DNA of 55,248 nucleotides, from NCBI RefSeq assembly GCF_001261715.1, contig NZ_CVRU01000032.1, forward strand, positions 1 through 55,248. Direction: 5' to 3'. The position numbers and the translations under genes were made by a program. This stretch comes from Dysgonomonas sp. HGC4. Its GTDB lineage: Bacteria > Bacteroidota > Bacteroidia > Bacteroidales > Dysgonomonadaceae. Below, in pieces: positions 3,645 to 53,200 of this stretch; position 1 is the first letter of the stretch, and every line of letters begins with the position of its first letter. The notes under the pieces were generated by a model, which was given only the letters and a program-made list of their open reading frames with translations, searched no databases and was not told the origin of the DNA.

Positions 3645-4025
3645 GTTTTGAAATTCGCCAAACTAAATACGATAAAACACTTACAATTAATTTTTTCTGT
3701 AAGAAATAACTGGAAAATCTCTTTTCTCAAATCCATAAAAAGTTCATAGAGATTAACATGCTAAAGAACATACAATTTTGTATTTCAGATTATAGTCTCA
3801 TCAAAAGAACATTTATTAATTTTGAGAAAAAGCAAAAGAGCATTCATTCCTCGATTATAAAAGTAGTGTAATATTTATTGCCATATTTTCTAGACGTTTG
3901 AATAAACCTTACAGTTATTCAAACAAAGGGTATACTTATCCTTAGTCAAAGCAATAAAGGGTTGAAAACCCAAATCTGGTATTGAAGTTGAATATTTTAT
4001 ATAAATCCTATAAATATTTATTACC
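3645..4025 (+). other. Long leader region upstream of the EF-G paralogue
   Basis: About 380 nt without an ORF precede the EF-G-like gene. The upstream part is featureless AT-rich DNA. The last 130 nt hold two hairpins that look like a copy of the dispersed element, listed separately. No clear TAnnTTTG box is visible near the gene, so the transcription start may lie well upstream. Confidence 0.4.
3896..3971 (+). repeat. Dispersed two-hairpin element, leader orientation
   Basis: The first hairpin is a perfect 10-bp inverted repeat, GTTTGAATAA (3896-3905) and TTATTCAAAC (3915-3924). The flank CTTAGTCAAAGCAATAAA follows, then the dyad GGGTT-GAA-AACCC (3959-3971). The flank matches CTTACCAAAACAATAAA at the copy near 27690. 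The dyad sequence differs from consensus but keeps full pairing. Confidence 0.6.
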
Positions 4026-6185
4026 ATGAGAACTTACCAAACTAACGAAATCAAAAACATTGCAATTCTTGGGAGCTCCGGCTCCGGGAAAACCACTCTT
4101 GCCGAAGCAATGCTTTTCGAGGCAGGTGTTATAAAACGCAGAGGTACTGTGAAAGCCGGAAACACGGTTACCGATTACTTTCCGGTTGAAAAAGAGTATG
4201 GATATTCGGTCTTTTCGAGTATCTTTTCTGTTGAATGGATGAATCGTAAACTCAACTTTATTGACTGCCCCGGAGCTGATGATTTTATAGGCAATGTAGT
4301 AACATCACTCAATGTGATGGATACAGCACTCATGGTATTAAATGCTCAATATGGGATTGAAGTTGGTACAGTAAACCAACTAAGATATATTCAGAAATTT
4401 CAAAAACCGGTAATGTTCATCGTCAATCAGCTCGATCAGGAGAAAGCCGATTTTGACAATGTAGTAGCTCAATTAAAAGGTAATTACGGCGAAAAAGCAG
4501 TACTCATACAATACCCTATCAGTTGCGGACCAAGTTTTAATGCCATAATTGATGTTCTAAAAAAGAAAATGTACAGATGGAAACCCGAAGGAGGCGTTCC
4601 CGAAGTACTCGAAGTTCCCGAAGAAGAAAAAGATAAAGCCGAAGAACTACACCAAAAATTAGTTGAAGCAGCCGCAGAGCACGAAGAATCGTTGATGGAA
4701 AAATTCTTTGAGCAAGGTACACTTACCGAAGAAGAAATGCGTTTCGGAATCCGTAAAGGTCTTGTACAAAGAGATATTTTTCCCATATTCTGCGTTTGTG
4801 CCGAACGAGATATGTGTGTAAGACGAACTATGGAATTCTTAGGGAATGTAGTACCTTATGTTGTAGACATGTCTTTCCCCGAGAATACAGAAGGAGAGGA
4901 AGTAAAACCTGATGTGAATGGCCCGACGAGTTTATTCTTCTTCAAATCGACAGTAGAGCCTCATGTAGGCGACATTTCGTACTTTAAAGTAATGAGCGGA
5001 AAAGTAAAAGAAGGAGATGATCTTATAAATGCAGACAGAGGATCAAAAGAGCGTATTGGACAATTATTCATGGTTGCAGGTCAGCAACGTACCAAAGTAG
5101 AAGAACTTGTTGCCGGAGATATAGGTGCAACAGTAAAACTGAAAGATGTACGCACAGGAAACACACTGAACGGAAAAGGAACCGACAATCAATTCGACTT
5201 CATTAAATACCCCAACCCCAAATACCGCAGAGCAATAAAAGCTGCTAACGAAAGAGACTCTGAAAAACTGAGCGAAGCTTTGCAACGAATGCACGAAGAA
5301 GACCCCACATGGCTTATCGAAAATTCCAAAGAACTAAAACAACTTATAGTATCGGGACAAGGTGAATTCCATTTAAAAACTCTAAAATGGAGAATAGAAA
5401 ATAACGATAAAATATCAATAGTATATTCTGAACCTAAGATTCCCTATCGTGAGACTATCACAAAACCATCGAGAGCCGAATATCGTCACAGAAAACAATC
5501 GGGCGGTGCAGGACAGTTTGGTGAAGTACATATGATTGTAGAACCTTATATTGAAGGCATGCCTGTACCCGACTCCTATAAATTTAACGGGCAGGAATTT
5601 AAAGTACAATCTAGAGACATTCAGACTTATGATCTTGATTGGGGAGGAAAACTTATCTTCGTCAATAGTATTGTAGGTGGAGCTATCGACACACGGTTTG
5701 TTCCCGCTATTATCAAAGGTATTATGGCTCGACTCGAACAAGGACCTCTTACCGGATCATACGCACGTGACGTACGTGTTATCGTATATGATGGGAAAAT
5801 GCACCCCGTAGATTCTAATGAAATATCTTTCATGCTAGCCGGACGTAATGCCTTTAGTGAAGCTTTCAAAAATGCAGGTCCTAAGATTCTCGAACCTATA
5901 TCGGATGTTACCGTTTTTGTTCCTTCCGATAAAATGGGAGATGTAATGAGTGATATTCAAAACAGAAGAGGTATAATTCAGGGGATGGAAAGCGACAAAG
6001 ACATTGAAGTCATAAATGCTAAAGTACCTTTAAAAGAAATGTCTAACTACTCTATAACTCTTAGTTCTCTTACCGGAGGTCGGGCTTCATTCATTATGAA
6101 ATTCTCTAAGTATGAATTAGTACCCGCCGATGTACAAGAAAAGCTATTGAAAGAGTATGAAGAAACCCAAAAAGCCGAAGATTAA
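4026..6185 (+). CDS. Elongation factor G paralogue (EF-G2-like) with altered GTPase motifs
   Basis: A 719-residue protein with the EF-G domain order: G domain (about 1-280), domain II (about 310-400), then III-V, including the domain IV motif HRKQSGGAGQFGEV. The G motifs depart from canonical EF-G. The P-loop is GSSGSGKTT (16-24) instead of AHIDAGKTT. Switch I reads YGYSV where canonical EF-G has RGITI. G3 reads DCPGADDF (80-87), so the catalytic histidine of DTPGH is Ala84. G4 is NQLD (134-137) instead of NKxD. A Bacteroides EF-G paralogue lacking GTPase activity and needed for gut fitness has been described, and this protein fits that class. The housekeeping fusA would then lie outside the window. 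It is a single gene with a long leader, convergent with the HxlR gene. Confidence 0.88.
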   Translation: MRTYQTNEIKNIAILGSSGSGKTTLAEAMLFEAGVIKRRGTVKAGNTVTDYFPVEKEYGYSVFSSIFSVEWMNRKLNFIDCPGADDFIGNVVTSLNVMDTALMVLNAQYGIEVGTVNQLRYIQKFQKPVMFIVNQLDQEKADFDNVVAQLKGNYGEKAVLIQYPISCGPSFNAIIDVLKKKMYRWKPEGGVPEVLEVPEEEKDKAEELHQKLVEAAAEHEESLMEKFFEQGTLTEEEMRFGIRKGLVQRDIFPIFCVCAERDMCVRRTMEFLGNVVPYVVDMSFPENTEGEEVKPDVNGPTSLFFFKSTVEPHVGDISYFKVMSGKVKEGDDLINADRGSKERIGQLFMVAGQQRTKVEELVAGDIGATVKLKDVRTGNTLNGKGTDNQFDFIKYPNPKYRRAIKAANERDSEKLSEALQRMHEEDPTWLIENSKELKQLIVSGQGEFHLKTLKWRIENNDKISIVYSEPKIPYRETITKPSRAEYRHRKQSGGAGQFGEVHMIVEPYIEGMPVPDSYKFNGQEFKVQSRDIQTYDLDWGGKLIFVNSIVGGAIDTRFVPAIIKGIMARLEQGPLTGSYARDVRVIVYDGKMHPVDSNEISFMLAGRNAFSEAFKNAGPKILEPISDVTVFVPSDKMGDVMSDIQNRRGIIQGMESDKDIEVINAKVPLKEMSNYSITLSSLTGGRASFIMKFSKYELVPADVQEKLLKEYEETQKAED

Positions 6186-6199
6186 AGGTCACTTACCTT

Positions 6200-6559
6200 T
6201 TATGCTTTCGATTTTGCCATACATGCACTATTTATTGCTTCCAGATGATCAGTAGACCATTCTACGAGATTTTTAATTAAAGGCAATAAGCTTTTGCCCA
6301 TATCAGTTAGCTGATACTCTACTCGGGGAGGTATTTCCAGAAATGCCTCTCTTGAGATTAGACCACACTCTTCGAGTACTCGCAGAGTAGAAGCTAGCAT
6401 TTTTTGAGATATATCCTCAATACCCCTATCCAAATCATTAAAACGGATGGGGGTTTCTTCTTCACCTAAGGTTTGCAAAACAAGAATAGACCACTTATCG
6501 CCAAACCTATCCATCACGGTTCTCAACGGACAACCTTCTATCACTATTCTTTTTTTCAT
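6200..6559 (-). CDS. HxlR-family winged-helix transcriptional regulator
   Basis: A 119-residue DNA-binding protein of normal HxlR length. The family signature CPLRTVMDRFGDKW is at residues 9-22, and Cys9 is the residue used for redox sensing in some members. It is followed by the wHTH segment with RFNDLDRGIEDISQKMLASTLRVLE and the wing PPRVEYQLTDMGKSL, given here only as landmarks. It is divergent from the double NTF2-like gene, which is therefore its likely target. The signal it senses is unknown. Confidence 0.9.
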   Translation of the reverse strand: MKKRIVIEGCPLRTVMDRFGDKWSILVLQTLGEEETPIRFNDLDRGIEDISQKMLASTLRVLEECGLISREAFLEIPPRVEYQLTDMGKSLLPLIKNLVEWSTDHLEAINSACMAKSKA

Positions 6560-6595
6560 TTTTCTTTTGTTCTAACCCCTACATTATCAACTTTA

Positions 6596-6697: not shown

Positions 6698-7624
6698 ATG
6701 AAAACAAACATATTTATTTTATTATTGGCTAGTAATTTTTGTATAACACAAAGCGCCTTTAGTCAAGATGTAGATCTGAATTTTAAAAATCAATCACTTA
6801 AAACAATAAAGATGGAAACAATAAATAAATCTACCGAAGAAACACGTAAAATAGTTGAAAGTTTTTATAATAAAACTACTCTGGGAGACGTAGCCGGAAT
6901 TATAGATCTAATGTCAGATGATATAGAATGGGAAATTCCCGGAAATGAAAGTTTAGCTCCTTGGGTAGGATTAAAAAAAGGAAGGTCCTCTGTAAACGAA
7001 TTCTATACTTTATTGAACAAGAACACTAAGAATCTGATATTCAAAGTTGATGAATTATTTATAAACGATCAGCATGCTGTTGCACTAGGGTATGTATCAA
7101 CCATTATATTGAAAACTAATAAAATATTCAATAGTTACTTTATGGCACATTTTACGGTCTCTGATAAACGCATAACAAAATATCTATTTTTGGAGGATAG
7201 CTTTGAACTAGCAAAAGCATTGACTATAGATAACTATGAAGAATATACGAAAGGCAATTCAAGTGAAAATATCGATATTATCAAAAAATACTTTAAGAAT
7301 GTTAGTACCCGAAATATGGATACCATAAATTCTCTTTTTGCACCAGATATAGAAGTTTATTTTCCTCAATCGGGAGTTTTAAAAGGCATCAACAACCTGC
7401 TTAAACTTAACAAGAGCCTAATAGAATCAATAGATAAAATCAGCTACGACTATAACAACTTTGTCTATACTATTTCCGGCAATAGGATAATTGTAGAAGG
7501 AATAGAGAGTGGCATCTATGCAAATAGTAATAATAGCTTTGTGAACAAACGATTTTGCAGTATATTCGAAATCAAAAATGGACTAATTTGTCGTATGTAT
7601 GTGTATGCCAATTTAAACCTATAA
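6698..7624 (+). CDS. Exported protein with two tandem NTF2/SnoaL-like domains
   Basis: A 308-residue protein with a signal peptide (about 1-22, ending SAFSQ). Two copies of a cone-shaped NTF2/SnoaL-like fold follow. The first spans about 46-175 (ETRKIVESFYN, then DLMSDDIEWEIPG). The second spans about 188-305 (NIDIIKKYFKNV, then SLFAPDIEVYFPQSG). Single-domain members act as small isomerases, hydrolases or ligand binders; a tandem exported form is less common. An internal Met at 36 (METINKS) would give a cytosolic form without the signal peptide, so the start is slightly uncertain. It is probably controlled by the divergent HxlR regulator. No catalytic residues can be assigned. Confidence 0.75.
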   Translation: MKTNIFILLLASNFCITQSAFSQDVDLNFKNQSLKTIKMETINKSTEETRKIVESFYNKTTLGDVAGIIDLMSDDIEWEIPGNESLAPWVGLKKGRSSVNEFYTLLNKNTKNLIFKVDELFINDQHAVALGYVSTIILKTNKIFNSYFMAHFTVSDKRITKYLFLEDSFELAKALTIDNYEEYTKGNSSENIDIIKKYFKNVSTRNMDTINSLFAPDIEVYFPQSGVLKGINNLLKLNKSLIESIDKISYDYNNFVYTISGNRIIVEGIESGIYANSNNSFVNKRFCSIFEIKNGLICRMYVYANLNL

Positions 7625-8828: not shown

Positions 8829-10955
8829 TTATTTGATAAAACCTCTATTTTTCAACAAATAAATAGGGTTAGGCTCAGCTCCTCTGAAAATCTTGTACAA
8901 AGTCATCGGATCCTCAGAACCACCTTTAGACAAGATATTATCACGGAACGATTGTCCTGTTGTTCTATCGAAAACACCTTTTTCTACAAAAGCTTCAAAA
9001 GCATCAGCATCCAATACCTCAGACCACAAATAGCTATAATATCCGGCAGAATATCCACCATCAAAGATGTGAGCAAAATAAGTACTCTTATATCTTGGGA
9101 TAATCTCTGAGATAAGACCTATTTTATTCATTTCATTTGATTCGAATGCATCTACATCAAAATCTTGTTTCTCAGTTATTACATGCCATTTCATATCAAG
9201 AAGAGCAGCAGCAACAATTTCAGTAGTTTCGAATCCTGAGTTAAAGTTTGTTGCCTCTTGCATTTTAGCAATCAAAGCATCAGGAATTACTTCACCTGTT
9301 TGATAATGTTTAGCATATAGCTTCAATACCTCAGGATGCAATGCCCAATGTTCGTATATTTGAGAAGGAAGTTCTACAAAGTCACGAGATACAGCTGTAC
9401 CCGACAGTCCATTATAATTTACATTCGATAGTAAGCCATGCAATCCATGTCCAAATTCATGGAAAAGAGTTGTTACTTGCTCCAATGTCAACAAAGAAGG
9501 TTTATCCTCAGTAGGCAAAGCAAAATTACCTACATTATAAATAATAGGATTCACAAACTCACCATTCTTTACACTCTGTTTACGGAAACTACCCATCCAA
9601 GCACCGTTGCGTTTACTTGCACGAGGGAAGTAATCCAGATAAAGCACACCAATAAAAGATCCGTCAGCATCTATTACATCAAAAGCTTGAACATCTTTAT
9701 GATAAATAGAAATCTCCGACGATGGTTTAAATGTAATTCCATATAACTTATTAGCTACAAGAAATGCTCCATCACGCACATTATCAACCATAAAATAAGG
9801 CTTCAATGCCTCTTCATCTAAAGCATATTTCTCCTTACGAAGTTTTTCAGTATAATACCACCAATCCCAAGAAGCTAATTGAAAATTACCCCTTTCACTA
9901 TCAATCATCTTTTGAAGTTCAGCAGCTTCTTTTTTAGCTTGAGGTAAAGCATATTCCCAAATATTATTCAATAATCCGAATACATTATCAGGAGTTTTAG
10001 CCATTGTTTCATCAAGAACATAATCTGCATGAGATTTATATCCTAAAAGATTAGCTTTCTCTAATCTCAGATTCACAATTTTATTGATGTTCTTTTTATT
10101 ATCGAATTCGTTATTATTGTTGCCACGACTATACATAGCCTTGTACAATTTTTCGCGTAAATCTCTGTTATCTGCATATTGAAGAAAAGGCAACCAGCTA
10201 GGTTTACTCAAAGTAAATACCCATTTACCATCCATTCCTTTTTCTTTAGCTGTTTTTGCTGCGATATTAATAACATCAGATGATAATCCTGATAAGTCTT
10301 TAGAATTATCTATGACCAACTCATAGTTATTTGTTTCTGCCAGAAGATTCTTACCAAAAGAAAGAGAAAGTAAACTCAACTCTTTATTTATTTCACGTAA
10401 ACGATCTTTTTGAGCTGCATTTAATGCAATACCCGAACGAACGAATCTCTTATAGTATTTTTCAACTAAACGTTTTTGCTCTGTAGTTCTGGCAGGATTC
10501 AAACTATCAGCATATACTATTTTTATACGTGCAAAAAGAGGCTCGTTCAAATAAATATTATCATCGTGCTCCGACAACAGTGGAGATATTTCCTCAGCTA
10601 TTTTTTGAATATCCGGATCACTTTGAGCTCCACGAATGGCTCCAAATACTGACGATACTCTATCTAATATCTCACCACTTTCGTCTAAAGCCACCACTGT
10701 ATTTTCGAAAGTAGCAACATCTCTTTTTCTAGTGATGGCATTTATTTCAGCAGCTTGTTGTTCGATACCTTTAACAAAAGCAGGCTTGTAATCTTCTTTT
10801 TTAATTAAATCGAAAGGAGGTGTACCGTTAGGTGTTTTAAACGCCTCGAGGAAAGGATTCTTTATATCCATTTGTTTAATATTATTCTGATTATCTTGCG
10901 CATAACTCAATGTCGTTATAGCCAGGCTAAAGAGAAATAAAAACTTTTTGATCAT
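8829..10955 (-). CDS. dcp: M3-family peptidyl-dipeptidase, exported
   Basis: A 708-residue zinc metallopeptidase that removes dipeptides from peptide C termini. The N terminus is a signal peptide ending in YAQ (about residue 20), so it is likely periplasmic; E. coli Dcp has no such peptide. The zinc motif HEFGH is at residues 499-503, and the third ligand is the Glu of the downstream FETTEIV segment. The C-terminal substrate-binding stretch GGYSAGYYSYLWSEVLDADAF is typical of the family. It is monocistronic with its own terminator. It could cooperate with peptide uptake, but no operon link is visible. Confidence 0.92.
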   Translation of the reverse strand: MIKKFLFLFSLAITTLSYAQDNQNNIKQMDIKNPFLEAFKTPNGTPPFDLIKKEDYKPAFVKGIEQQAAEINAITRKRDVATFENTVVALDESGEILDRVSSVFGAIRGAQSDPDIQKIAEEISPLLSEHDDNIYLNEPLFARIKIVYADSLNPARTTEQKRLVEKYYKRFVRSGIALNAAQKDRLREINKELSLLSLSFGKNLLAETNNYELVIDNSKDLSGLSSDVINIAAKTAKEKGMDGKWVFTLSKPSWLPFLQYADNRDLREKLYKAMYSRGNNNNEFDNKKNINKIVNLRLEKANLLGYKSHADYVLDETMAKTPDNVFGLLNNIWEYALPQAKKEAAELQKMIDSERGNFQLASWDWWYYTEKLRKEKYALDEEALKPYFMVDNVRDGAFLVANKLYGITFKPSSEISIYHKDVQAFDVIDADGSFIGVLYLDYFPRASKRNGAWMGSFRKQSVKNGEFVNPIIYNVGNFALPTEDKPSLLTLEQVTTLFHEFGHGLHGLLSNVNYNGLSGTAVSRDFVELPSQIYEHWALHPEVLKLYAKHYQTGEVIPDALIAKMQEATNFNSGFETTEIVAAALLDMKWHVITEKQDFDVDAFESNEMNKIGLISEIIPRYKSTYFAHIFDGGYSAGYYSYLWSEVLDADAFEAFVEKGVFDRTTGQSFRDNILSKGGSEDPMTLYKIFRGAEPNPIYLLKNRGFIK

Positions 10956-11056
10956 AAACTTGCGTAATTTATATTTAGATTAGTAAATACCTTCAATTAA
11001 TTATACCTATTAACATAGTAAATAGATATATCACTTTATTGTGAGATCACAGATAA

Positions 11057-11566
11057 TCAGGGAGTCATTTCATCTACCTGAATAACTCCAGCTTCATTCA
11101 AATCATCTATCTCACTATCAGGCAACCAGCCTTCCTTTGTTGAAAAATAAGTATATAAAGAACAAGAAGTTCCATTCTCTATATCTCCGCAATTTCTTAA
11201 TACTAACTTAGTATTATCTATTTCCAGAATTTCAACAATTTGCGATGCTCCATCAGTAGGACTAACCATTACAAAATGAGTATCATCTACCAACTTCCAT
11301 CGGTCTTCATATACATCGGAACTATATTTTGAGAAAACGGAGTATAATTTATTTTCCTCATCAAAAAAGATACTTGAGATATCATCTCTCTTGTAAAACT
11401 CAACCTGAGTCAGCACCTCGTCACCCACTTTTTCCTCAGTTCTCACAGAAAACAAAAACCAAGCACCTTGAGAAGTTAACTGTTGACTCATATCAATATC
11501 TTGTCCTTTCATATATATGATACAACACAACATAAATGATACTATAACACCAATCTTTTTAATCAT
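11057..11566 (-). CDS. Small exported protein, lipocalin-like, function unknown
   Basis: A 169-residue protein I do not recognise by family. Residues 1-21 form a signal peptide ending KGQ. The rest is strand-rich (GAWFLFSV, DRWKLVDDTHFVMV, TKLVLRNC), similar to lipocalin-like domains of Bacteroidetes, and it has an acidic C terminus. Two cysteines near the end (NCGDIENGTSC) could form a disulphide. It follows era at about 110 nt, and that gap holds a copy of the dispersed element. Confidence 0.6.
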   Translation of the reverse strand: MIKKIGVIVSFMLCCIIYMKGQDIDMSQQLTSQGAWFLFSVRTEEKVGDEVLTQVEFYKRDDISSIFFDEENKLYSVFSKYSSDVYEDRWKLVDDTHFVMVSPTDGASQIVEILEIDNTKLVLRNCGDIENGTSCSLYTYFSTKEGWLPDSEIDDLNEAGVIQVDEMTP

Positions 11567-11580
11567 AATATTAAGTAAAT

Positions 11581-11662
11581 GAAAGTATTCAATAATATAC
11601 TTTCTAATTTTAACAAACTATTGTTATTATGCTTTTCAAAGTATATATAGGTCTGAGATCTT
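11581..11662 (-). repeat. Dispersed two-hairpin element after era
   Basis: On the minus strand it begins with the dyad AAGATCTCAGACCTA (11662-11648), continues ATATATACTTTG, and ends in a second hairpin with 8-bp arms GAAAGTAT and ATACTTTC (11581-11604). It lies between the era stop codon and the next minus-strand gene. Confidence 0.7.
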
Positions 11663-11676
11663 ACACTTTTCTTTTT

Positions 11677-12558: not shown

Positions 12559-12723
12559 TCTTTTTTCTTCTCTCAAAAATTTAGTTTTAAAGTCTAAGAC
12601 TTGCTCATTATTTCTGTATCGGGAATATATACTGATAAGAATAGGCTCTATTCTTTCAAAACAGAGCAATTAAATACTTCCCAATACTTAAACACCTCAT
12701 TAGACAACAAATATAGAATAAAA

Positions 12724-16270: not shown

Positions 16271-17353
16271 TCAATCTCTAAAAAACATAGGTGTATCTCC
16301 AAATATGAAATTAGAGAATCCCGCCTCTTTAAATTTATATTTAGCTAAAACTTCTTTTGCAATAGCCAAGAAAGCTTCAATATCATAAATTATAAAATCC
16401 ATATACGAAAAATAGAAACCCGTTGCACCACCTATCGAATCGGCAACCCCTTCGGATTTTGCCTGCGTCAGTATCTGATCTTCAATTTCAGTTCTGAAAG
16501 GAACCATACGATCTTTAGGTACATTTATATTTTCATAAAACAAGAATCCGAAAACAACACCATCAGCATAAAAATTACCGAACAATTCGGTTGATTTATT
16601 ATAAAAGGCATTCAATACCGGAAAACAAGACGAATAAGCTATATATATATCCTCTCTCAACTGCCAATCTTTAGCCTTTGATGGAACCATTTCATAACCA
16701 GCACACCTTTCGCAAATATTCTCGATTTTAAACCAGTTTTGCGCTACAATAGTATCATCCATCAACTTCTTAAGATCGCCGGCAGCTATTTCTCTGAAAC
16801 CTTTCCCTGAAGACGCCACAAAATCAATAGAACCGATATACTCCATTGTATAAGCTTCTCCAATGAGCTGATCTAGATAAATAAAAAACATGCTGTATTT
16901 TTTATTCTCTTCCAACTTCATCAACTGAGGGCATTCAACCTGCAAATTTACTTTCTGATGCTTTTCGTCCACATTATAATATAATACAATACTATCTGCA
17001 GAAAGAGATGTATCATACATATTTATAGTAAAATCGCCTTTAGCCTTAGCTGGCTTAGTAGAGTAAAAATTCCATTTTTCTAACAATGCCTCCGGAACTT
17101 GTTTCAACCAATACTCCAATTGAAACAATCTTGAACGATCTCCCTCAGGAGTCAAAATCAGTTCATTTTTTCCATCCTCATTAACCCCCAATTCGAAAAA
17201 TGCTTTACTGAAAGCAACAGACAATAGATCGTCAACATATTTTATCAATGTATCAGTTTCGACTTTGTCATCTATCATTTTTCTGACTTCGGATTCTTTT
17301 TCACTAAAGAGATCCCAAAATTTCGCTACTCTTTCCTTAAATGATACATTCAT
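16271..17353 (-). CDS. Unrecognised 360-residue cytosolic protein
   Basis: I do not recognise a family. There is no signal peptide or membrane segment. The N terminus (1-40) is charged and helical. Near 215-222 there is an ICERC motif, two cysteines that could bind a metal or form a disulphide. The C-terminal third is aromatic-rich (GGATGFYFSYMDFIIYD), suggesting a compact alpha/beta domain. It is preceded at 38 nt by the TonB-C gene on the same strand, and the gap holds one dyad of the dispersed element, so the two are probably cotranscribed. Confidence 0.6.
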   Translation of the reverse strand: MNVSFKERVAKFWDLFSEKESEVRKMIDDKVETDTLIKYVDDLLSVAFSKAFFELGVNEDGKNELILTPEGDRSRLFQLEYWLKQVPEALLEKWNFYSTKPAKAKGDFTINMYDTSLSADSIVLYYNVDEKHQKVNLQVECPQLMKLEENKKYSMFFIYLDQLIGEAYTMEYIGSIDFVASSGKGFREIAAGDLKKLMDDTIVAQNWFKIENICERCAGYEMVPSKAKDWQLREDIYIAYSSCFPVLNAFYNKSTELFGNFYADGVVFGFLFYENINVPKDRMVPFRTEIEDQILTQAKSEGVADSIGGATGFYFSYMDFIIYDIEAFLAIAKEVLAKYKFKEAGFSNFIFGDTPMFFRD

Positions 17354-18111: not shown

Positions 18112-18200
18112 AGCCTTATCAATTACAAATAAAAACTCCCAACTGTTTATTTTATTGCTGCTTATCATCGAAGCTAAACCTACGAATCATCCCGACTATA

Positions 18201-18232
18201 CTTATCAAAACAATAAAAAGGTCTAAAACTTT
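18201..18232 (+). repeat. Dispersed element copy
   Basis: CTTATCAAAACAATAAAAAGGTCTAAAACTTT in plus orientation, between two minus-strand genes. The flank is an almost exact match to the copy at 27682. The dyad is imperfect (AAGGTC against AACTTT). Confidence 0.6.
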
Positions 18233-18344
18233 AGATACAATAAAAATAACATTTATTGCTCTACTTTGCAAACATTCCTCATCATTAGATCAAAAAGGAT
18301 CTATTTCTAACGATATATAATTCTCACAACCTAAGAGTTACGAA

Positions 18345-18974: not shown

Positions 18975-19393
18975 TGATTTACTATTTAAGTAACGTTAAT
19001 AATTTTCACTGACAAACCGACTTACAGTGGCAGACCGATATACTCGTTTTCTGCAAAAAGAAAAGAAACTCCCACATACGTATCAACAAGAGATACACAT
19101 CCATACCAACCATAAGCACAGCAAATGTAAGATATGTGCTCTAAAAAAGAAGATAAATTCTCAATAAAGTAACGTTAAATATCCAAAGGGTAACATTCCA
19201 ATTATAGCTACATTTGATTATTAGACGCGTCGAAGAGACAAAGAGGTTTGCTCTCTTAAAAAGAAATCATTTTCGATTTAATAAAATCTTACAAAACATA
19301 TCTTTCAATAGTACAATTCTTTCCGTATATTTGCATCCCGTAAATTGGGGTTGTAATCTCCATGCGATAAACTAGTCACACCATTGTTTAAGA
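18975..19393. other. Divergent region between the YhcH-like gene and lepA
   Basis: A 419-nt gap with no convincing ORF. It holds a direct repeat of AAGTAACGTTAA (18988-18999 and 19168-19179), whose core TAACGTTA is a palindrome. It also holds a hairpin AGCACA (19115-19120)/TGTGCT (19135-19140), a minus-strand TACATTTG box at 19122-19129 that could drive the YhcH-like gene, and the lepA promoter. Confidence 0.45.
19303..19333 (+). promoter_or_regulatory. lepA promoter
   Basis: TATATTTG at 19326-19333 is a full -7 match. TTTC at 19303-19306 is a one-off -33 match 19 nt upstream. The leader would be about 54 nt. Confidence 0.65.
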
Positions 19394-21181
19394 ATGAATA
19401 AAATAAGAAACTTTTGCATTATTGCGCATATAGATCATGGTAAGAGCACATTAGCTGACCGCCTACTCGAATATACTAAAACAGTAGAAGGCAAAGATAT
19501 GCAAGCTCAAGTCCTTGATAATATGGATTTGGAACGTGAACGTGGTATCACAATTAAAAGTCACGCCATCCAGATGCAATACCTGTACAATGGCGAAACA
19601 TATATACTGAATCTCATTGATACTCCGGGACACGTTGACTTCTCTTACGAAGTTTCGCGTTCTATTGCTGCATGCGAAGGGGCACTACTTATAGTTGATG
19701 CAGCTCAAGGAATACAAGCTCAAACGATTTCCAACCTTTATATGGCAATCGATAATGACTTGGAAATTATTCCAATCCTCAATAAGATAGATCTTCCAAG
19801 TGCTATGCCTGACGAAGTAGAAGATCAGATCATCGAACTTTTAGGATGTAAACGCGAAGAAATTATCCGTGCCAGTGGAAAAATGGGGCAAGGAGTATAT
19901 GATATTTTAGCCGCTATTATAGAACGTGTTCCTGCTCCAAAAGGAGATCCAGAAGCACCTTTGCAAGCTTTGATTTTTGACTCTGTATTTAATTCCTTCC
20001 GAGGAATTATAGCCTATTTCAAAATTCTAAACGGTTCTATAAGAAAAGGCGACCTTGTAAAATTCTTTGCTACTGAAAAAGAATATAACGCTGATGAAGT
20101 TGGTGTTTTAAAACTAACCATGTCACCCCGCGATGTAGTTACTTGTGGAGATGTAGGTTATATTATATCAGGCATCAAGACCTCTAAAGAGGTAAAAGTA
20201 GGTGATACAATTACTCATGTAAAAAATCCTTGTGAGAAAGCGATAGATGGTTTCGAAGAAGTAAAACCAATGGTTTTCGCAGGGGTATACCCTATCGAAA
20301 GTGAAGACTTTGAAGACCTGAGAGCTTCTTTGGAAAAGCTTCAATTGAACGATGCTTCACTAACCTTCCAACCCGAATCGTCTATTGCCTTAGGTTTTGG
20401 TTTCCGATGCGGATTCTTGGGACTTTTACATATGGAGATCATACAAGAACGTTTGGAACGTGAGTTCAACATGGACGTTATAACAACAGTACCCAACGTT
20501 TCATATTTAGTATACGACAAAAAAGGAGGAGTAAAAGAAGTACATAACCCTTCGGGGCTACCCGACCCTACCCTTATCGATTATATAGAAGAACCATATA
20601 TACGTGCATCGGTTATTACCAGTACAGCATACATCGGACCTATCATGTCGCTATGTTTAGGTAAACGTGGTATACTTCTAAAACAAGAATATATTTCAGG
20701 AGATCGTGTAGAAATCACTTATGATTTACCTCTTGGTGAAATTGTAATCGACTTTTACGATAAATTGAAAAGTATATCAAAAGGATATGCTTCATTCGAC
20801 TATCAAATGCACGACTATCGTGAAGCTAAGTTGGCTAAAATGGATATTCTCTTAAACGGAGAACCTGTGGATGCTCTTTCAACACTTACTCACGTAGACA
20901 ATGCAGTAAACTTTGGTCGTAGAATGTGCGAGAAATTAAAAGAACTTATTCCACGTCAACAGTTTGACATTGCGATACAAGCAGCTATCGGCGCTAAAAT
21001 CATAGCTCGCGAAACAATAAAGGCTGTTCGTAAAGATGTTACGGCAAAATGCTACGGAGGTGATATTTCTCGTAAACGTAAACTTCTTGAAAAACAAAAA
21101 GAAGGTAAAAAAAGAATGAAACAAGTAGGTAACGTAGAAGTGCCTCAAAAAGCATTCTTAGCAGTACTAAAACTAGATTAA
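19394..21181 (+). CDS. lepA: Elongation factor 4 (LepA)
   Basis: A 595-residue translational GTPase of standard length. G motifs are AHIDHGKST (11-19), [14 protein letters not shown] and NKID, all canonical, in contrast to the EF-G paralogue at 4 kb. The LepA-specific C-terminal domain is complete ([26 protein letters not shown]). EF4 acts on stalled ribosomes and in 30S biogenesis. Its stop codon overlaps a dyad of the dispersed element. Confidence 0.97.
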
Positions 21182-21194
21182 GGTTTTAGACCTA
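21180..21194 (+). repeat. Dispersed dyad overlapping the lepA stop codon
   Basis: AAGGTTTTAGACCTATTAAT, in which the first A belongs to the TAA stop. The following flank is AT-rich, with a possible weak second stem near GCAATATTGC. Confidence 0.6.
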
Positions 21195-21249
21195 TTAATT
21201 TCAATTCATAATCAAGCAATATTGCGATAAGCATTTACAGTTACTTAAT

Positions 21250-21912
21250 TTGACAAAAAACATTCTCATCGTATTTTTCTTTTTGACAGCATTGTTTACT
21301 CAAGCGCAAGAGAGAAAGGAATATGACACCGATCATTACAGGGAACGTATGGCTTATTTTGAGCAAAACCCGATTGGTGAGAACAAAATTGTCTTTTTAG
21401 GAAACAGCTTGACCGAAGGTGGACAATGGGATAAATATTTTCCCGAAGCTGCACCTGTCAACAGAGGTATATCAGGAGATAACACTGAAGGGATGCTTAA
21501 CAGAATAGATGAGATTGCAGAATCACATCCAAGATTTCTATTTATACTCGCAGGTATCAATGATATCTCCCAAGATTCACCTAACAAAAAAATTATAAAA
21601 CAGTATCGTTCTATAATAAAACAAGTAAAAAAAGAATCTCCCAATACAGTTATTTATATACAAAGCTTGCTTCCAATAAATAACGACTTCGAACGGTATA
21701 AAAGATTGCTAGGAAAAGAGAAGCAAATTGGAAAGCTCAATAAAGAGCTAAAAAAATTAGCATCAAAGGAACGCGTCAGTTTTCTAAATATTAATCCATT
21801 ATACATGGATGCGCAAGGAAAATTAGATACAAAATATACAAACGACGGTTTACATCTTACCGAAACTTCTTATAATATATGGGTGAATGAACTTCATAAA
21901 TATATTAACTAA
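21250..21912 (+). CDS. SGNH/GDSL-family lipase or esterase, exported
   Basis: A 220-residue hydrolase with a TTG start; no upstream ATG is available in frame. Residues 1-19 form a signal peptide ending TQAQ. Block I is FLGNSLTEGG with the nucleophile Ser, block II has NRGISGD, block III has LAGINDI, and block V is NDGLHL with the catalytic Asp/His pair. It resembles platelet-activating-factor acetylhydrolase-like SGNH esterases. It lies 68 nt after lepA and 20 nt before the flavin reductase. Confidence 0.85.
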   Translation: MTKNILIVFFFLTALFTQAQERKEYDTDHYRERMAYFEQNPIGENKIVFLGNSLTEGGQWDKYFPEAAPVNRGISGDNTEGMLNRIDEIAESHPRFLFILAGINDISQDSPNKKIIKQYRSIIKQVKKESPNTVIYIQSLLPINNDFERYKRLLGKEKQIGKLNKELKKLASKERVSFLNINPLYMDAQGKLDTKYTNDGLHLTETSYNIWVNELHKYIN

Positions 21913-21932
21913 GTAAAAGAGGTATAACAGAT

Positions 21933-22439
21933 ATGAATAACTTCAAGGAAATATCGGCTAAAGAACTTACATTCGATCCTTTTGACATAAAGGACGAATG
22001 GATGTTAGTTACTGCCGAAAAAGAAGGAAAAGTAAATACTATGACTGCCAGCTGGGGAGGCTTCGGAATTATGTGGAACAAACAAGTAGCCTTTATTGTT
22101 ATACGTCCGCAACGTTACACTAAAGAATTTGTTGATAATGCAGACTCTTTTTCACTTACCTTCTTTGATAAAAGCTATCTGAAAAAGCTTAGTTATCTGG
22201 GTAAAGTATCGGGCAGAGATGAAAATAAAATAGAAAAAGCTGAACTGACAATTACTCACGAAGGAGAGATTCCTTACTTTGAGGAAGCTCACACAGCCAT
22301 TTTTATTAAAAAATTATATGCTCAACCAATGGGAGGTGAATATTTTCTGGATAAGGAAATAATTGCAAAGTGGTTCCCTCAAAACGATTTCCATATTTTA
22401 TATATAGGAGAGATCACAAAGGTTCTAACAACAAATTAA
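21933..22439 (+). CDS. Flavin reductase-like domain protein
   Basis: A 168-residue FMN-binding split-barrel protein. Landmarks are TASWGGFGIMWNKQVAFIV, RPQRYTKEFV and FSLTFFD, the usual flavin reductase-like core. The likely role is FMN-dependent reduction of an unknown substrate. It is cotranscribed with the SGNH gene (20 nt apart). Its stop codon overlaps a dyad. Confidence 0.82.
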   Translation: MNNFKEISAKELTFDPFDIKDEWMLVTAEKEGKVNTMTASWGGFGIMWNKQVAFIVIRPQRYTKEFVDNADSFSLTFFDKSYLKKLSYLGKVSGRDENKIEKAELTITHEGEIPYFEEAHTAIFIKKLYAQPMGGEYFLDKEIIAKWFPQNDFHILYIGEITKVLTTN

Positions 22440-22481
22440 GGTCGAAGACCTATTTATATCTACCTAAGTATAGGTATACTT
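22438..22481 (+). repeat. Dispersed two-hairpin element
   Basis: AAGGTCGAAGACCTATTTATATC overlaps the stop codon and is followed by a perfect second dyad AAGTATA-GG-TATACTT at 22466-22481. Confidence 0.75.
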
Positions 22482-22563
22482 GCAAGTTATGATTTTACAA
22501 ATCTAACTTTCACTTAAGATCACTCTATTTACAAACAATTTTAAAACAGGCGTATTTGCAATA

Positions 22564-24517: not shown

Positions 24518-24629
24518 TGTCTCATACTAGCTAATCCCCTCTTACAAAGCTCAACATTTTTTTTAGAGTCTACAAACAGACTATTCTTTTCGTAAACATT
24601 TACTATTTTAGAAAACAATCTTTATATTT

Positions 24630-24682
24630 AAGGTTTCAGACCTTTTTAATATTTTGACAAGTACAACAACTATAACCTGAAA
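24630..24682 (+). repeat. Dispersed element copy
   Basis: AAGGTTTCAGACCTTTTTAA, then TATTTTGACAAGTACAACAAC. It is isolated between the speA terminator and the VOC gene. The dyad differs from consensus only by a G-U-type pair, and the flank matches the reverse complement of the copy at 27690. Confidence 0.7.
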
Positions 24683-24723
24683 GCATATTGCTTATAGCTT
24701 TCTTTACTAAAAAATAAACAAAC

Positions 24724-26578: not shown

Positions 26579-26754
26579 AAATAGTATTAACAAAAACCAC
26601 TATAATCTATTTTAAGGAGTATATTGCGAGGTTTAATTTATAGATATATCTATTTACAATAATAGATATTATAAACAAAGCTTATTAGGAGTTTGTTATA
26701 AAACCCAGATATTATAAATAATCAAGTTACGGTAAGTAGCAAATACAATATAAA

Positions 26755-26811: not shown

Positions 26812-26824
26812 CAATATACTTAAC

Positions 26825-27514: not shown

Positions 27515-27547
27515 TTTTTTTGTACATTTGTTATCTAGAAAAGGCAG

Positions 27548-27713: not shown

Positions 27714-27749
27714 AGATATTTCACCGTACTTAAAAGTTAATTTAAAGGT

Positions 27750-31061: not shown

Positions 31062-31113
31062 GGTCATAAACCTATCTGTTGTTTTGGTGCAGGAATGAGG
31101 TTTATCTCCTGCA
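31060..31113 (+). repeat. Dispersed two-hairpin element between sufC and sufD
   Basis: AAGGTCATAAACCTATCTGT, then TGTTTTGG, then a second hairpin with 7-bp arms TGCAGGA (31088-31094) and TCCTGCA (31107-31113). The arm sequences are unrelated to other copies, but the position is the same. Confidence 0.75.
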
Positions 31114-33897: not shown

Positions 33898-33958
33898 ATA
33901 AGGTAGTAAGTCGTAGCCCTTATCAATATTGTAACATGTAAAACAATTATAGATTGTT
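33898..33958 (+). repeat. Degenerate dispersed element
   Basis: TAAGG (33899-33903) pairs with CCTTA (33918-33922), then AACAAT (33942-33947) pairs with ATTGTT (33953-33958). The spacing is longer than in other copies, so membership is tentative. Confidence 0.35.
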
Positions 33959-34014
33959 ATAACTCGAAAGTATATCATCAAATGCTTTCATTCACCTATA
34001 TTATAATATCATTT

Positions 34015-35034: not shown

Positions 35035-35122
35035 TGTTCTTTTCTTTAGAAATTATAGAGAAATAGGTAATCTATAACACTTAAACTCCTTCTTTTTTAC
35101 AAAAGAAAAAACATATTTATAT

Positions 35123-38143: not shown

Positions 38144-38264
38144 AAAGGGTCTACGACCTTTTTATTATTTTAATACATACCTATCGGTAATAAAAGAAGA
38201 ACTAACAAACAGTTTATAGCCATAGTAAATTATAGCTATTACACTCAAAGCCTCCCAAAGGCTT
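38144..38264 (+). repeat. Dispersed element, possible fold-back pair
   Basis: AAAGGGTCTACGACCTTTTTATTATTTTAA starts at 38144. A second dyad AAGCCT-CCCAA-AGGCTT closes the region at 38248-38264, 15 nt before the next start. Ends of this kind resemble the 27548-27713 pair, but the right dyad is diverged. Confidence 0.5.
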
Positions 38265-39867: not shown

Positions 39868-39889
39868 ATAAACAAAGGTATCTTTATTC

Positions 39890-39945
39890 AGGTCTCAGAC
39901 CTATTTATTACTTAGACAAGCGTTAATACAACAGATCGTATTACG
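39890..39945 (-). repeat. Dispersed two-hairpin element, leader orientation
   Basis: On the minus strand a hairpin TAATAC/GTATTA (39943-39924) is followed by AAGTAATAAATAGGTCTGAGACCT (dyad 39902-39890), 22 nt before the aspartate dehydrogenase start. Confidence 0.75.
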
Positions 39946-39990
39946 ACTCAAAATACTTGTACAGTATAATTACTATTACTTATATAGACT

Positions 39991-40752: not shown

Positions 40753-40762
40753 AATTTACATT

Positions 40763-40816
40763 AAGGCATCAGGCCTTTTATTATTTTAGTAAACATATCT
40801 ATCAAAGATAGCTATG
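40763..40816 (-). repeat. Dispersed two-hairpin element, leader orientation
   Basis: On the minus strand CATAGCTATC-TTT-GATAGATATG forms the second hairpin and contains the TATCTTTG box. It is followed by TTTACTAAAATAATAA and the dyad AAGGCCTGATGCCTT. The T-to-C and A-to-G changes in the dyad compensate each other. The spacing from the -7 box (25 nt) is nearly that of the 27665 copy. Confidence 0.75.
40803..40810 (-). promoter_or_regulatory. -7 box for the MBL hydrolase
   Basis: The minus strand reads TATCTTTG inside the second hairpin of the dispersed element. The leader would be about 45 nt. Confidence 0.55.
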
Positions 40817-40945
40817 ATTGAAAGATAGAGCAATAAATTCATTAAATATTTTACGGTATTTAGGGGTCTCAAATATTTTAATGCTCAGCCAAACATTATA
40901 GCTACCATCTGTTTCAACAAAAAACAAAAAAAACGACCTACAAAG

Positions 40946-42067: not shown

Positions 42068-42101
42068 ATGGCAGTATAGCCATAAAAAGATCTCAGATCT
42101 T
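42068..42101 (-). repeat. Dispersed two-hairpin element at the serS stop codon
   Basis: On the minus strand the TAA stop runs into AAGATCTGAGATCTTTTT, a perfect dyad with a G-C to A-T compensatory change against consensus. A second hairpin ATGGC-TATACT-GCCAT (42083-42068) follows. Confidence 0.7.
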
Positions 42102-43371
42102 AATCTATTATATCAAATCCTGTATAAGGAATCAACACCTTAGGAATATGTATTCCATCTGATTTCTGATTATTCTCAAGCAAAGCAGCCACTATTCGAG
42201 GAAGAGCCAAAGCACTACCATTTAAAGTATGCACCAATTGAGTTTTCTTATCTGTGTTTCGATATCTGCATTTTAGACGGTTAGCCTGAAAGCTTTCGAA
42301 ATTAGAAACGGAGCTTACCTCTAGCCATCGTTTTTGCGCAGCAGAGAACACTTCGAAATCGAATGTCAATGCCGATGTGAAACTCATGTCACCACCACAA
42401 AGACGAAGTATACGCCAAGGCAGTCCAAGTTCGGTCACCAACGACTCCACATGGCTTACCATCTCTTTCAGCGATTCGTATGAATGCTCAGGAGTATCTA
42501 TACGTACAATCTCTACTTTATCGAATTGATGCAAGCGGTTCAATCCGCGAACATCTTTTCCGTAAGAACCAGCTTCACGTCTGAAACATGCTGAATAAGC
42601 TGTATTTTTGATCGGAAGATCTTTTTCTTCCAGAATTACATCGCGATATATATTTGTTACAGGTATTTCAGCTGTTGGTATCAAATACAAATCATCCAAA
42701 GTCGCATGGTACATTTGACCTTCTTTATCGGGAAGATTACCTGTACCATAACCCGATGCTGCATTTACCACATAAGGCGGTTGAATCTCTAAATAACCCG
42801 CATCGCGTGCTTTATCTAAGAAATAGTTGATTAATGCTCGTTGCAAACGGGCTCCTTTTCCTTTATAAACGGGAAAACCTGCTCCTGAAATTTTAACACC
42901 CAATTCAAAATCGATGAGGTCATACTTTTTCGCTAAATCCCAGTGAGGAAGAGCTTCGTCTCCTAAATCAGGAATAGTACCTCCTGTTTTAATCTCAACA
43001 TTATCTTCTGCAACCCTACCCTCCGGTACTTCATCCGCAGGCAGATTAGGTATAAGTACAAGCATTTCCTGCACCTGCACCTCAGCATCTTTAAGATCTG
43101 CTTCCAATACTTGAATACGACCTTTAACCTCTTGTACAAAAGAACGCAGGTTTTCGGCTTCGTCTTTCTTTCCTTCTTTCATCAAAGCGCCTATGCTCTT
43201 CGACTTGGCATTAACATCCGCAAGAAGTCCATCTAACTCAGTTTGTATATCTCTACGTCTTTTATCTTCGCCCAACACTTTATAGATGATTTCTTTTCCA
43301 TCAAAGTGTTTTTTAGCCAATTTTTTTATAACTGCCTCAGGGTTATCATTAATAGTCTTGATCGTTAACAT
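42100..43371 (-). CDS. serS: Seryl-tRNA synthetase
   Basis: A 423-residue class II synthetase. An N-terminal tRNA-binding coiled coil spans about 30-100, motif 2 is FRREAGSYGKDVRGL, and motif 3 lies in LNGSALALPRIVAALLENNQ. Length is standard. Confidence 0.97.
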   Translation of the reverse strand: MLTIKTINDNPEAVIKKLAKKHFDGKEIIYKVLGEDKRRRDIQTELDGLLADVNAKSKSIGALMKEGKKDEAENLRSFVQEVKGRIQVLEADLKDAEVQVQEMLVLIPNLPADEVPEGRVAEDNVEIKTGGTIPDLGDEALPHWDLAKKYDLIDFELGVKISGAGFPVYKGKGARLQRALINYFLDKARDAGYLEIQPPYVVNAASGYGTGNLPDKEGQMYHATLDDLYLIPTAEIPVTNIYRDVILEEKDLPIKNTAYSACFRREAGSYGKDVRGLNRLHQFDKVEIVRIDTPEHSYESLKEMVSHVESLVTELGLPWRILRLCGGDMSFTSALTFDFEVFSAAQKRWLEVSSVSNFESFQANRLKCRYRNTDKKTQLVHTLNGSALALPRIVAALLENNQKSDGIHIPKVLIPYTGFDIID

Positions 43372-50498: not shown

Positions 50499-50580
50499 GA
50501 CGTTTTTTTAATCCTATCAGAACTCTTATCTTTAGACAGTAAGCAATCGCAGATATTGGACAAGTCATTTTCAATTCATT

Positions 50581-50630
50581 ACAATCAATTGTTCTTACAC
50601 TTACAAAACAATAAAAAGGTCTGAGACCCT
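50581..50630 (+). repeat. Dispersed two-hairpin element, leader orientation
   Basis: ACAAT-CA-ATTGT (50581-50592), then CTTACACTTACAAAACAATAAA, then AAGGTCTGAGACCC (dyad 50616-50630). The flank matches the 27690 copy almost exactly. It is 21 nt before the start of the DJ-1-like gene. Confidence 0.78.
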
Positions 50631-50651
50631 AACTTTTAAAACATTACAGGT

Positions 50652-52300: not shown

Positions 52301-52301
52301 C

Positions 52302-53144
52302 ATGCCAGTAGAAGAAGAGAAAAAAGTAAAGAAAGGTGGCAAAAAATGGAAATTCCTACTCATTTTACTATTAATAATAGTTATAGGTGGAGTATTCAGT
52401 AAGTTTTTTATGCAAATAAAACATATACCTTCGGGATATATTGGTGTAAAATCGAGCATAGGAAATCCCCTTGACAATAGCGTAGATTACGAGGTAAAGT
52501 TAGTAAAAGGGTACGTTATATTTATGCCTCTTTATACAGAAATAATCGTTTATCCTACTACGATACAAACCGCAGCATACGATTCTATTAAAGTAAATGC
52601 TCTGGATGGAACCGAATTTATAGTAAAACCTAGAGTATCGTATTTACTCGACGAATCTAAAGCTGAACTTCTTTATAAAAACGAAAAGAAGAGTTTAGGA
52701 GAAATAAACAACAGCTATCTCAAAGAAGTTGTAGCACACTCCTATTCAACTGCCGCCGGCACTTTCAGCTCTGACTCTCTTGTGAGTAATAAAAATGCCT
52801 TTGAAATCGAAGTGAATAGAATATTAGCTTCGAAAATGGGAGAAATCGGTTTGATCCTAAAAAATACAAACTCGAACTTGGAAATTCCTCAAAAAATAAA
52901 AGACATAATTGCCCTTCGTAGCCAATCTCTACAAAATGCGATATTGGCAGAAGATAAGATGAAGCAAGCCGAAGCTGAAGCAGAAATACAATTACTGGAG
53001 GCTAGAACAAAAAGCAAAGAAGATTCCTTAAAGAATTCGGCAATGACTAATCTTGCAATTCAAAAAATGTTTATTGAGAAATGGGATGGCAAATTACCCC
53101 TGTATGGTGACACCCCTAAAATCTACAAAAACATAACTGAATAA
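52302..53144 (+). CDS. Membrane-anchored SPFH/prohibitin-like protein
   Basis: A 280-residue protein with one membrane anchor (about 18-38, KFLLILLLIIVIGGVFSKFF) and a SPFH/prohibitin-like domain from about 45 to 195. A coiled-coil segment rich in Ala and Glu runs from about 215 to 240 (EDKMKQAEAEAEIQLLEAR), which family members use to oligomerise. SPFH proteins organise membrane microdomains. It starts 1 nt after hisC, an unexpected place for such a gene. Confidence 0.8.
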   Translation: MPVEEEKKVKKGGKKWKFLLILLLIIVIGGVFSKFFMQIKHIPSGYIGVKSSIGNPLDNSVDYEVKLVKGYVIFMPLYTEIIVYPTTIQTAAYDSIKVNALDGTEFIVKPRVSYLLDESKAELLYKNEKKSLGEINNSYLKEVVAHSYSTAAGTFSSDSLVSNKNAFEIEVNRILASKMGEIGLILKNTNSNLEIPQKIKDIIALRSQSLQNAILAEDKMKQAEAEAEIQLLEARTKSKEDSLKNSAMTNLAIQKMFIEKWDGKLPLYGDTPKIYKNITE

Positions 53145-53145
53145 T

Positions 53146-53200
53146 AAGGTCTTAGAGCTATTTAAAACCTTAGCAAGTATAACATCAATAGACTGTTATA
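53146..53200 (+). repeat. Dispersed two-hairpin element between the SPFH gene and hisB
   Basis: AAGGTCTTAGAGCTATTTAA, then a perfect second hairpin TATAACA (53178-53184) and TGTTATA (53194-53200), whose arms equal those of the 27582-27603 copy. The region ends TATACTTACTA at the hisB start. Confidence 0.78.

Follow-up and report, generated by a model that had tools for sequence, protein, structure and literature searches.

A short TA-bounded repeat with several hairpins in the spacers of Dysgonomonas genomes, and the case for its mobility

The spacers of a 55,248-nucleotide stretch of contig NZ_CVRU01000032.1 of Dysgonomonas sp. HGC4 (the whole stretch is called the window here) hold many similar dyads, and the question raised by this locus is what these dyads belong to. 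A first-pass annotation of the window had described a dense family of intergenic hairpins and had offered three options, namely an RNA hairpin, the site of a dyad-binding protein, or the ends of a small mobile element; the last proved right in substance, as filled and empty TA sites indicated, although the dyad forms one end only. The family itself was confirmed as real and dense: the core AAGGTCTNAGACCTT was found with up to three mismatches at 21 places in the window, against a mean of 2.67 and a maximum of 8 in 100 dinucleotide shuffles, and with up to two mismatches at 378 places in the whole genome, against 32 for the reversed pattern. In an 833-kb sample of the window's genome (the window plus loci L016-L055, with 87.6% covered by open reading frames, ORFs), the centre of the core was intergenic in 10/10 exact, 32/35 one-mismatch, 37/44 two-mismatch and 39/75 three-mismatch matches. 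The dyads had been placed entirely in spacers, and this is roughly the case, several of them starting within the stop codon of the preceding gene.

The dyad together with its best right flank yielded, by iterated profile searches, a model of ~94-98 bp with 107 matches at E<0.05 in the 833 kb and 0 matches in the same sequence reversed. The consensus of the element is ATTAAGGTCTCAGACCTTTTTATTGCTTTGGTAAGTATAATAACAATAGATTGTTATAATTATAAAATATATCATTAAATACTTTCAATTACTT, then A. The dyads are the left ends of one conserved repeat that measures about 88-90 bp and has TA at either side (106 of the 107 matches were placed, with ends extrapolated from model positions), and the TTTATTGTTTTG-nTAAGTA side that had been reported beside the dyad is the interior of this repeat. 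In a boundary profile, TA was conserved on both sides, with only a weak T before and a weak A after it. Reading inward, the two ends have only TAAG in common, the TA of which is the target; therefore, the usual terminal inverted repeats (TIRs) are missing. Left and right ends were also paired at wider than normal spacing, giving size variants of ~115-195 bp. A promoter reading of an interior motif, compared by eye with the Bacteroidota promoter consensus, was dropped, as spacing and a key A did not fit and the orientation relative to genes was mixed.

The nearest named record, reached through a protein beside the elements (96% protein identity), was D. alginatilytica DSM 100214 (L081), whose DNA is about 80-94% identical to that of the window. 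The genome coded G002 is the same record, with matches at identical places. For mobility, the flanks of each copy were joined over a single TA and aligned to the other species, using 226 copies with a recognisable TA at both ends (52 from the window's genome, coded G000, and 174 from D. alginatilytica, coded G002). Twenty filled/empty sites were found between the two species, D. alginatilytica having the copy at 15 and the window's genome at 5; the TA lay exactly at the junction of the empty site in 17/20 cases, or in 18/20 if one movable one-base gap is shifted, and TA flanked the copy on both sides of the filled sites. In the cleanest case, GGTAATC-TA-TAACAC of the window (35073-35074) corresponded to GGTAATC-TA-AGGTCT...CACT-TA-TAACAC in D. 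alginatilytica. Element-sized gaps were seen in both directions where the two species align, and two of the 20 sites (g2C12:106128 and window 27624) belong to one rearranged locus. Because filled and empty sites differ at a TA that stands on both sides when filled, these comparisons indicate that the Dysgonomonas repeat is a non-autonomous mobile element. Without an outgroup, a site taken singly could reflect gain or precise loss. Gain is favoured over loss by the TA rule, by a nested copy described below and by the young age of many copies. When 82 copies of the window's genome were queried, 12 fell in an aligned region spanning them in the sister sample, and 10 of these 12 were judged by eye to be common to both species.

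Since E-values of the first model within the window are circular, a second model was built from D. alginatilytica copies alone; it kept the column frame of the first, whose training had included the window. It recovered 13 window copies at E<=3.3e-4, while the best match in the reversed window had E=0.022. Among these 13 were 11 of the 18 dyads of the first-pass annotation (11648, 18218, 22438, 24630, 26799, 27549, 27699, 39890, 40763, 50616 and 53146); four others (21180, 31060, 38145 and 42087) were weak, with E of 0.008-0.2 in one or both models, and three (3959, 17379 and 48288) had no match with the full-length models. Two copies, at ~19168-19251 and 33910-33995, had been overlooked by eye; one at 12587-12688 is weak. 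The copies, remnants and empty site of the window, with model coordinates, are as follows.

27622-27719, minus strand: best window copy, 63-66 bits; hairpin I at 27699-27713.
53140-53237, plus strand: full copy, directly adjoined on its left by the stop codon of the preceding ORF (52302-53144).
11572-11668, minus strand: full copy, also in D. alginatilytica.
50540-50636, minus strand: full copy.
39883-39982, plus strand: full copy, also in D. alginatilytica.
40757-40853, plus strand: copy with stem variant AAGGCATCAGGCCTT, the D. alginatilytica counterpart having AAGGCATCATGCCTC.
33901-33998, plus strand: copy absent from the by-eye list.
24624-24721, plus strand: copy matched in its left half, also in D. 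alginatilytica.
27544-27641, plus strand: copy at a locus rearranged between the two species.
26723-26818, minus strand: copy also in D. alginatilytica.
22432-22529, plus strand: copy supplying, with its left-end TAA, the stop of ORF 21933-22439; also in D. alginatilytica.
19166-19263, minus strand: decayed copy absent from the by-eye list.
18141-18238, minus strand: copy matched in its left half.
12583-12690, plus strand: weak copy overlapping a predicted gene end (E 0.0063, D. alginatilytica-trained model).
31058-31088, plus strand: remnant of the left end, at the stop of ORF 30300-31061 (E 0.013).
21178-21264, plus strand: weak copy, located at the stop of ORF 19394-21181 (E 0.074-0.18).
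38148-38178, plus strand: left-end remnant, first model only (E 0.0079).
42077-42103, minus strand: left-end remnant carrying AAGATCTGAGATCTT as its dyad, at the stop of ORF 42100-43371; matched by the first model alone (E 0.037).
35073-35074, no strand: empty TA site at which D. alginatilytica has a ~90-bp insertion (L081:19849-19939).

The D. alginatilytica ortholog of the copy at 53140-53237 has a second copy nested inside it. The spacer at 27514-27750 is rearranged, with two copies of opposite orientation in the window and one copy plus remnants in D. alginatilytica.

On the dyad strand, four hairpins (I-IV) were predicted: I, AAGGTC-TCA-GACCTT, touches the left TA and is followed by a T-run; II is GCTT-TGGT-AAGC; III lies around ATAAC...GTTAT; and IV, about AAAATAT...ATATTTT, ends ~8 bases before the right TA. 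Pairing was assessed on 162 copies with both ends (45 from the window's genome and 117 from D. alginatilytica, out of 103 + 237 matches). The best pair of each hairpin had 15 compensatory cells against 1.7 in shuffles for I, 16 against 5.9 for II, 19 against 11.9 for III and 33 against 20 for IV, these being counts of copies rather than of events and inflated by the relatedness of subfamilies. The Watson-Crick excess over shuffles in register was 39.5, 37.8, 16.4 and 42.4 for I to IV, compared with 3.3, 4.1, 10.0 and 16.0 in the best of six registers slid by 1-3 columns. Pair 6-14 of hairpin I ranked first among all column pairs after average-product correction, which upholds the preserved pairing described in the first-pass annotation. 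Support is good for hairpins I, II and IV and weak for III; in a motif test of the latter, 120 of 352 copies matched, and the outer pair was Watson-Crick in 52 against 40.4 expected. Hairpin I also had a modest excess in a smaller alignment of 54 copies (8 against 4.1 cells, reached by 21/500 shuffles), and one young copy folded better than its shuffles (z -3.5 as DNA, -2.4 as RNA). The stem type AAGCTC/GAGCTT recurs in both species, and part of the pairing signal is subfamily history. Old copies at stop codons kept hairpin I no better than other old copies (p=0.49), and domestication of hairpin I as a terminator is accordingly unsupported. Given that relatedness inflates the pairing and that proximity to a stop does not improve the keeping of the hairpin, the data do not demonstrate selection for a function in the cell, either as RNA or through a protein. 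A search of the window against Rfam gave the dyads no match at gathering score, and one copy with its flanks matched only rimP (19.3 bits against the 47 needed, E 0.82); with counts above those of the controls and pairing above that of the shuffles, none of the refuting outcomes named in the first-pass annotation was observed.

The copies differ in age between the species. The top pairwise identity among full copies was 95% in D. alginatilytica (n=117), 78% in the window's genome (n=45) and 86% in a sample of a further Dysgonomonas genome, G005 (n=21). The family was therefore recently active in D. alginatilytica, the sampled copies of the window's genome being older. Density per kb of spacer was 1.77 between same-direction genes, 1.14 between divergent and 1.57 between convergent genes in D. 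alginatilytica, and 1.26, 0.30 and 0.09, respectively, in the window's genome. In the latter, 75/82 copies lay in same-direction spacers, with depletion in convergent (1/82, p=3e-4) and divergent spacers (6/82, p=3e-4); the D. alginatilytica copies were as frequent as expected in convergent spacers (20/223) and slightly low in divergent ones (39/223, p=0.007). Relative to the genes of same-direction spacers, 43 copies had the same and 32 the opposite orientation in the window's genome, and 94 and 70, respectively, in D. alginatilytica.

The relation to stop codons was asymmetric. The preceding gene used the left-end TAA exactly as its stop codon in 76/290 copies and the right-end TAA in 9/162 (p=1.5e-8), with TAAG, TAAA and TGAG accepted at the left end and TAAG and TAAA at the right. 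When age was taken as the quartile of model score, for D. alginatilytica copies with a gene on both sides, the youngest (best-scoring) quartile had no asymmetry (stop at the left end 9/33 against 5/26 at the right, p=0.55), while the other three had a strong one (65/106 against 11/83, p=7e-12). The simplest reading of this age asymmetry is unequal survival, because an insertion at a stop codon rebuilds the stop, spares the upstream region of the next gene and is hard to delete without damage to the gene. Insertions thus appear to be filtered over time, from unbiased at stops when young to mostly at stops, with the left end facing one, when old.

The enzyme that moves the repeat was sought with six transposase models in the window's genome, D. 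alginatilytica and four other Dysgonomonas genomes (G001, G003, G004 and G005), or in five of these six, and none of the models occurred convincingly in all five carriers of the repeat. The loci fetched around genes matching these models held no copy, except one weak copy in the G001 locus (L142/L165), and the ~3.4-kb locus around the D. alginatilytica RAYT gene held none. No parent element was seen as a well-scoring pair of left and right ends around a gene-sized insert in the 833 kb and the 1.57-Mb sample of D. alginatilytica, low-scoring pairs 0.9-3.8 kb apart not being singly examined. Three clusters emerged from the genes that recur in the sample at 85% identity, and none was recognised by eye as a transposase. 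Orientation was biased against the G-rich strand in D. alginatilytica (150 against 105, p=0.006) and in the window's genome (51 against 28, p=0.013), stretches with a skew below 0.02 being left out, and also in the set pooled with G005 (226 against 156, p=4e-4). As separate observations, a RAYT-like Y1 gene over the cut-off lies at L164 (D. alginatilytica C1:535949-536413), with a second, weaker match at L168/L169 (C24), and PF13358, PF13340 and PF01609 are almost without match in these Dysgonomonas genomes although the mobile repeat reaches hundreds of copies there.

We consider it probable that these repeats are one family of TA-bounded non-autonomous mobile elements, multiplied within Dysgonomonas by an enzyme that is supplied in trans and recognises the folded ends. 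Recognition would most likely take place on single-stranded DNA, because the ends lack inverted repeats, are unlike each other and carry hairpins with compensating changes; the Y1/HUH transposases of the IS200/IS605 and REP type may serve as the model. According to the accessible text of PMC6006769, the IS200/IS605 enzyme binds subterminal hairpins and works on the lagging-strand template. Insertions would fall widely in spacers at TA; a copy providing the preceding gene with its TAA stop from the left end would survive longest, and such copies would therefore dominate among old ones. More tentatively, and as the less likely of these two statements, the repeat may represent bacterial mobile DNA without TIRs that is recognised as a chain of folded hairpins, with joining at a bare TA and an enzyme from outside the searched families, possibly a resident host enzyme, as the mover; the TAAG ends would rebuild a stop codon, and selection would keep such copies as permanent pieces of gene ends.

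Several observations weigh against the first of these readings as a whole, in addition to the inflated pair counts noted above. With regard to folding, the excess of pairing was confined to some pairs in each stem (e.g., 6-14, 25-34, 62-85 and 66-81), others having none, and in hairpin IV it was seen at 62-85 and 66-81 among the ten pairs printed; two other copies had little or no folding advantage over their shuffles (z -0.15 and -0.67 as RNA, -0.97 and -1.57 as DNA); and RNAalifold gave no consensus pair for the 54-copy alignment, a result overtaken by the column tests on 162 copies. With regard to the enzyme, no candidate emerged: PF13358 (DDE_3) was found in 0/6 Dysgonomonas genomes, although a vanished partner is possible; PF13340 (DUF4096) in 0/5; PF01609 (DDE_Tnp_1) in 1/5, as a fragment at a contig end; PF01797 in 3/6 (G001, D. 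alginatilytica and G004), with none in the window's genome and G005; and PF01548 in 3/5. The RAYT model NF047646 matched at E<=0.1 in 4/5 genomes and was over the cut-off only in D. alginatilytica (110.7 bits), marginal in the window's genome (E 0.076) and without match at E<=0.1 in G005. G005 was also without strand bias (23 against 25), and among young D. alginatilytica copies the bias was only suggestive (54 against 35, p=0.056). The accessible text of PMC6006769 further gives a tetranucleotide target and a guide adjoining the foot of the hairpin as needs of the Y1 enzyme; in the Dysgonomonas repeat, only TA is conserved, and there is no space for a guide at hairpin I. Finally, flank identity was low at some of the 20 filled/empty sites (71-76%), including three sites filled in the window's genome (71-74%).

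TA-only targeting fits DDE enzymes better, and the single-strand reading is ahead, though not far. A possible but less probable explanation is an ordinary cut-and-paste miniature inverted-repeat transposable element (MITE), that is, a double-stranded deletion derivative moved by a TA-specific DDE transposase of the IS630/Tc1-mariner type, with very short TA-AG...CT-TA repeats and with hairpins that are protein-binding dyads. The TA-using part of the IS5 family is a further possible mover of such an element. The repeat is short (~90 bp), non-coding, AT-rich and present as hundreds of core matches per genome, and it has the TA target duplication of IS630/Tc1-mariner elements; its ends have TAAG in common, and its density per kb is similar across spacer types in D. 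alginatilytica. An inserted copy has TA on each side, like the TA-ended repeats RUP (linked to IS630-Spn1), ERIC and NEMIS in the part of PMC2229807 that was available. No inverted repeat extends past TAAG, however, where the TIRs of MITEs measure about 4-30 bp in the accessible part of PMC10969869; DDE_3 and DUF4096 are absent from the searched genomes, with a single DDE_Tnp_1 fragment; no well-scoring pair of ends encloses a gene-sized insert in the 833 kb and 1.57 Mb; and several covarying hairpins are unexpected for a MITE of this kind.

It is improbable that the repeat is a genetic-control element, i.e., an intrinsic terminator, a hairpin at the 3' end of mRNA or a protein-bound operator, selected beside genes with mobility incidental or absent. 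The T-run after hairpin I, the stop codons formed by the left end, which are enriched among old copies, and the large share of window-genome copies in same-direction spacers would suit it. Against it stand presence and absence with a TA rule, the occurrence of both orientations in same-direction spacers, the single copy of 82 in convergent spacers of the window's genome, where terminators should abound, the missing stop bias of the youngest D. alginatilytica copies, and a hairpin no better kept at stops. Least credible, to the point of being set aside, is a family of repetitive extragenic palindromes (REPs) moved by RAYT: there is a hairpin at one end, copies number hundreds and are mostly intergenic, and a RAYT over the curated cut-off occurs in D. 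alginatilytica, where the youngest copies were seen, with a marginal match in the window's genome, where copies are older, but no GTAG or other tag stands outside the hairpin, the repeat is ~90 bp with several hairpins, the D. alginatilytica RAYT has no copy near it, and G005 has 364 core matches without a RAYT match.

The family is abundant and, in the genomes searched, almost confined to the genus. About 440-580 copies are estimated for the window's genome, extrapolated from 82-107 matches in 833 kb, and about 890 for D. alginatilytica, extrapolated from 227 + 47 matches in 1.57 Mb. The pattern TAAGGTCTNAGACCTTTTTATT, with up to two mismatches, was present in 5/6 Dysgonomonas genomes (forward matches: 62 in the window's genome, 94 in G001, 218 in D. 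alginatilytica, 29 in G004 and 137 in G005), with 0 matches in G003, which is 62% complete; outside the genus, 2/394 other Bacteroidota genomes had one match each. With up to one mismatch, the core had 0-2 matches per genome in 25 relatives outside the genus, the reversed control reaching 4. A named D. capnocytophagoides locus (L078) also has a copy; no match was seen in a locus of 10 kb from Dysgonomonas sp. UBA10850 (L091). The exact pattern had 0 matches in viral contigs, and one copy used as query had no match in plasmids. Among the matches listed from the open-licence literature, there was no earlier mention of the repeat and no paper on miniature inverted repeats in Dysgonomonas.

We read the Dysgonomonas repeat as belonging broadly with the small TA-flanked mobile repeats such as ERIC, RUP and NEMIS, as a new variant. 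As far as the accessible accounts go, it is like ERIC/IRU in being non-coding, ~100 bp long, intergenic, with TA at both termini, tens to hundreds of copies and possible positions at gene 3' ends; ERIC reaches 711 copies in Photorhabdus (PMC10969869, in part). It differs from ERIC in its asymmetric ends, separate hairpins and phylum, and it lacks the 127-bp length and 7-bp TIRs given for ERIC in the available part of PMC2229807, being set apart from it by description. RUP of Streptococcus pneumoniae and IS630-type MITEs likewise have ~107 bp, a TA target and intergenic positions; RUP has 9-bp TIRs resembling those of IS630-Spn1 in the same part of PMC2229807, whereas the Dysgonomonas repeat has no TIR and no DDE_3 in any of the six genomes. 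With IS200/IS605 and REP/REPIN it shares hairpins at or near both ends, asymmetric ends and the lack of TIRs, and a replication-strand bias, seen in two of three genomes, may be a further likeness; unlike IS200/IS605, it uses TA only, with no tetranucleotide target or guide seen, and the window's genome and G005 are without PF01797. The GTAG or CGTC tag at the hairpin foot and the RAYT neighbour by which REPs are recognised (PMC3733652, accessible text) were not found. CIR of Caulobacter likewise has TA termini without TIRs, and, in contrast, GANTC sites and a stem formed by the 5' and 3' ends (PMC2229807, available part), the comparison being by description only. The MITEs listed for Porphyromonas gingivalis and Cardinium (PMC4596501, PMC9769881) are also non-autonomous and of the same phylum, Bacteroidota. 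For most small mobile repeats of bacteria, no mover had been demonstrated at the time of the review, to judge by the available part of PMC2229807. The Dysgonomonas family offers a tractable case, with younger, intermediate and older copies in one genus, insertion sites datable by comparison, a small number of genes from the common transposase families searched, and compensating changes that mark the parts recognised as structure. For the annotation of Dysgonomonas genomes, it accounts for hundreds of spacers.

A second polymorphic spacer repeat, on AACTGATAACTGATAACT, was noticed in D. alginatilytica C2 (L112 ~11591-11659 and L114 ~10968-11087); with up to two mismatches, AACTGATAACTGATAACT occurs 20 times in the 1.57 Mb of D. 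alginatilytica and 0 times in the 833 kb of the window's genome, with 0 in reversed controls. Beside several dyads stands a palindromic spacer motif, GTAGGGGC...GCCCCTAC (L022 ~7370-7470, L042 ~16570-16680 and L024 ~9470-9560), for which one tight pattern gave 2 strand-matches in the 833 kb and 0 in the D. alginatilytica sample. Between the same neighbours, window 21181-21923 and L081 4984-6752 are unlike in sequence, the former with a 220-amino-acid ORF and the latter longer and lacking any blastn match in the window. The sole Rfam match at gathering score in the window is a tRNA gene at 54445-54515.

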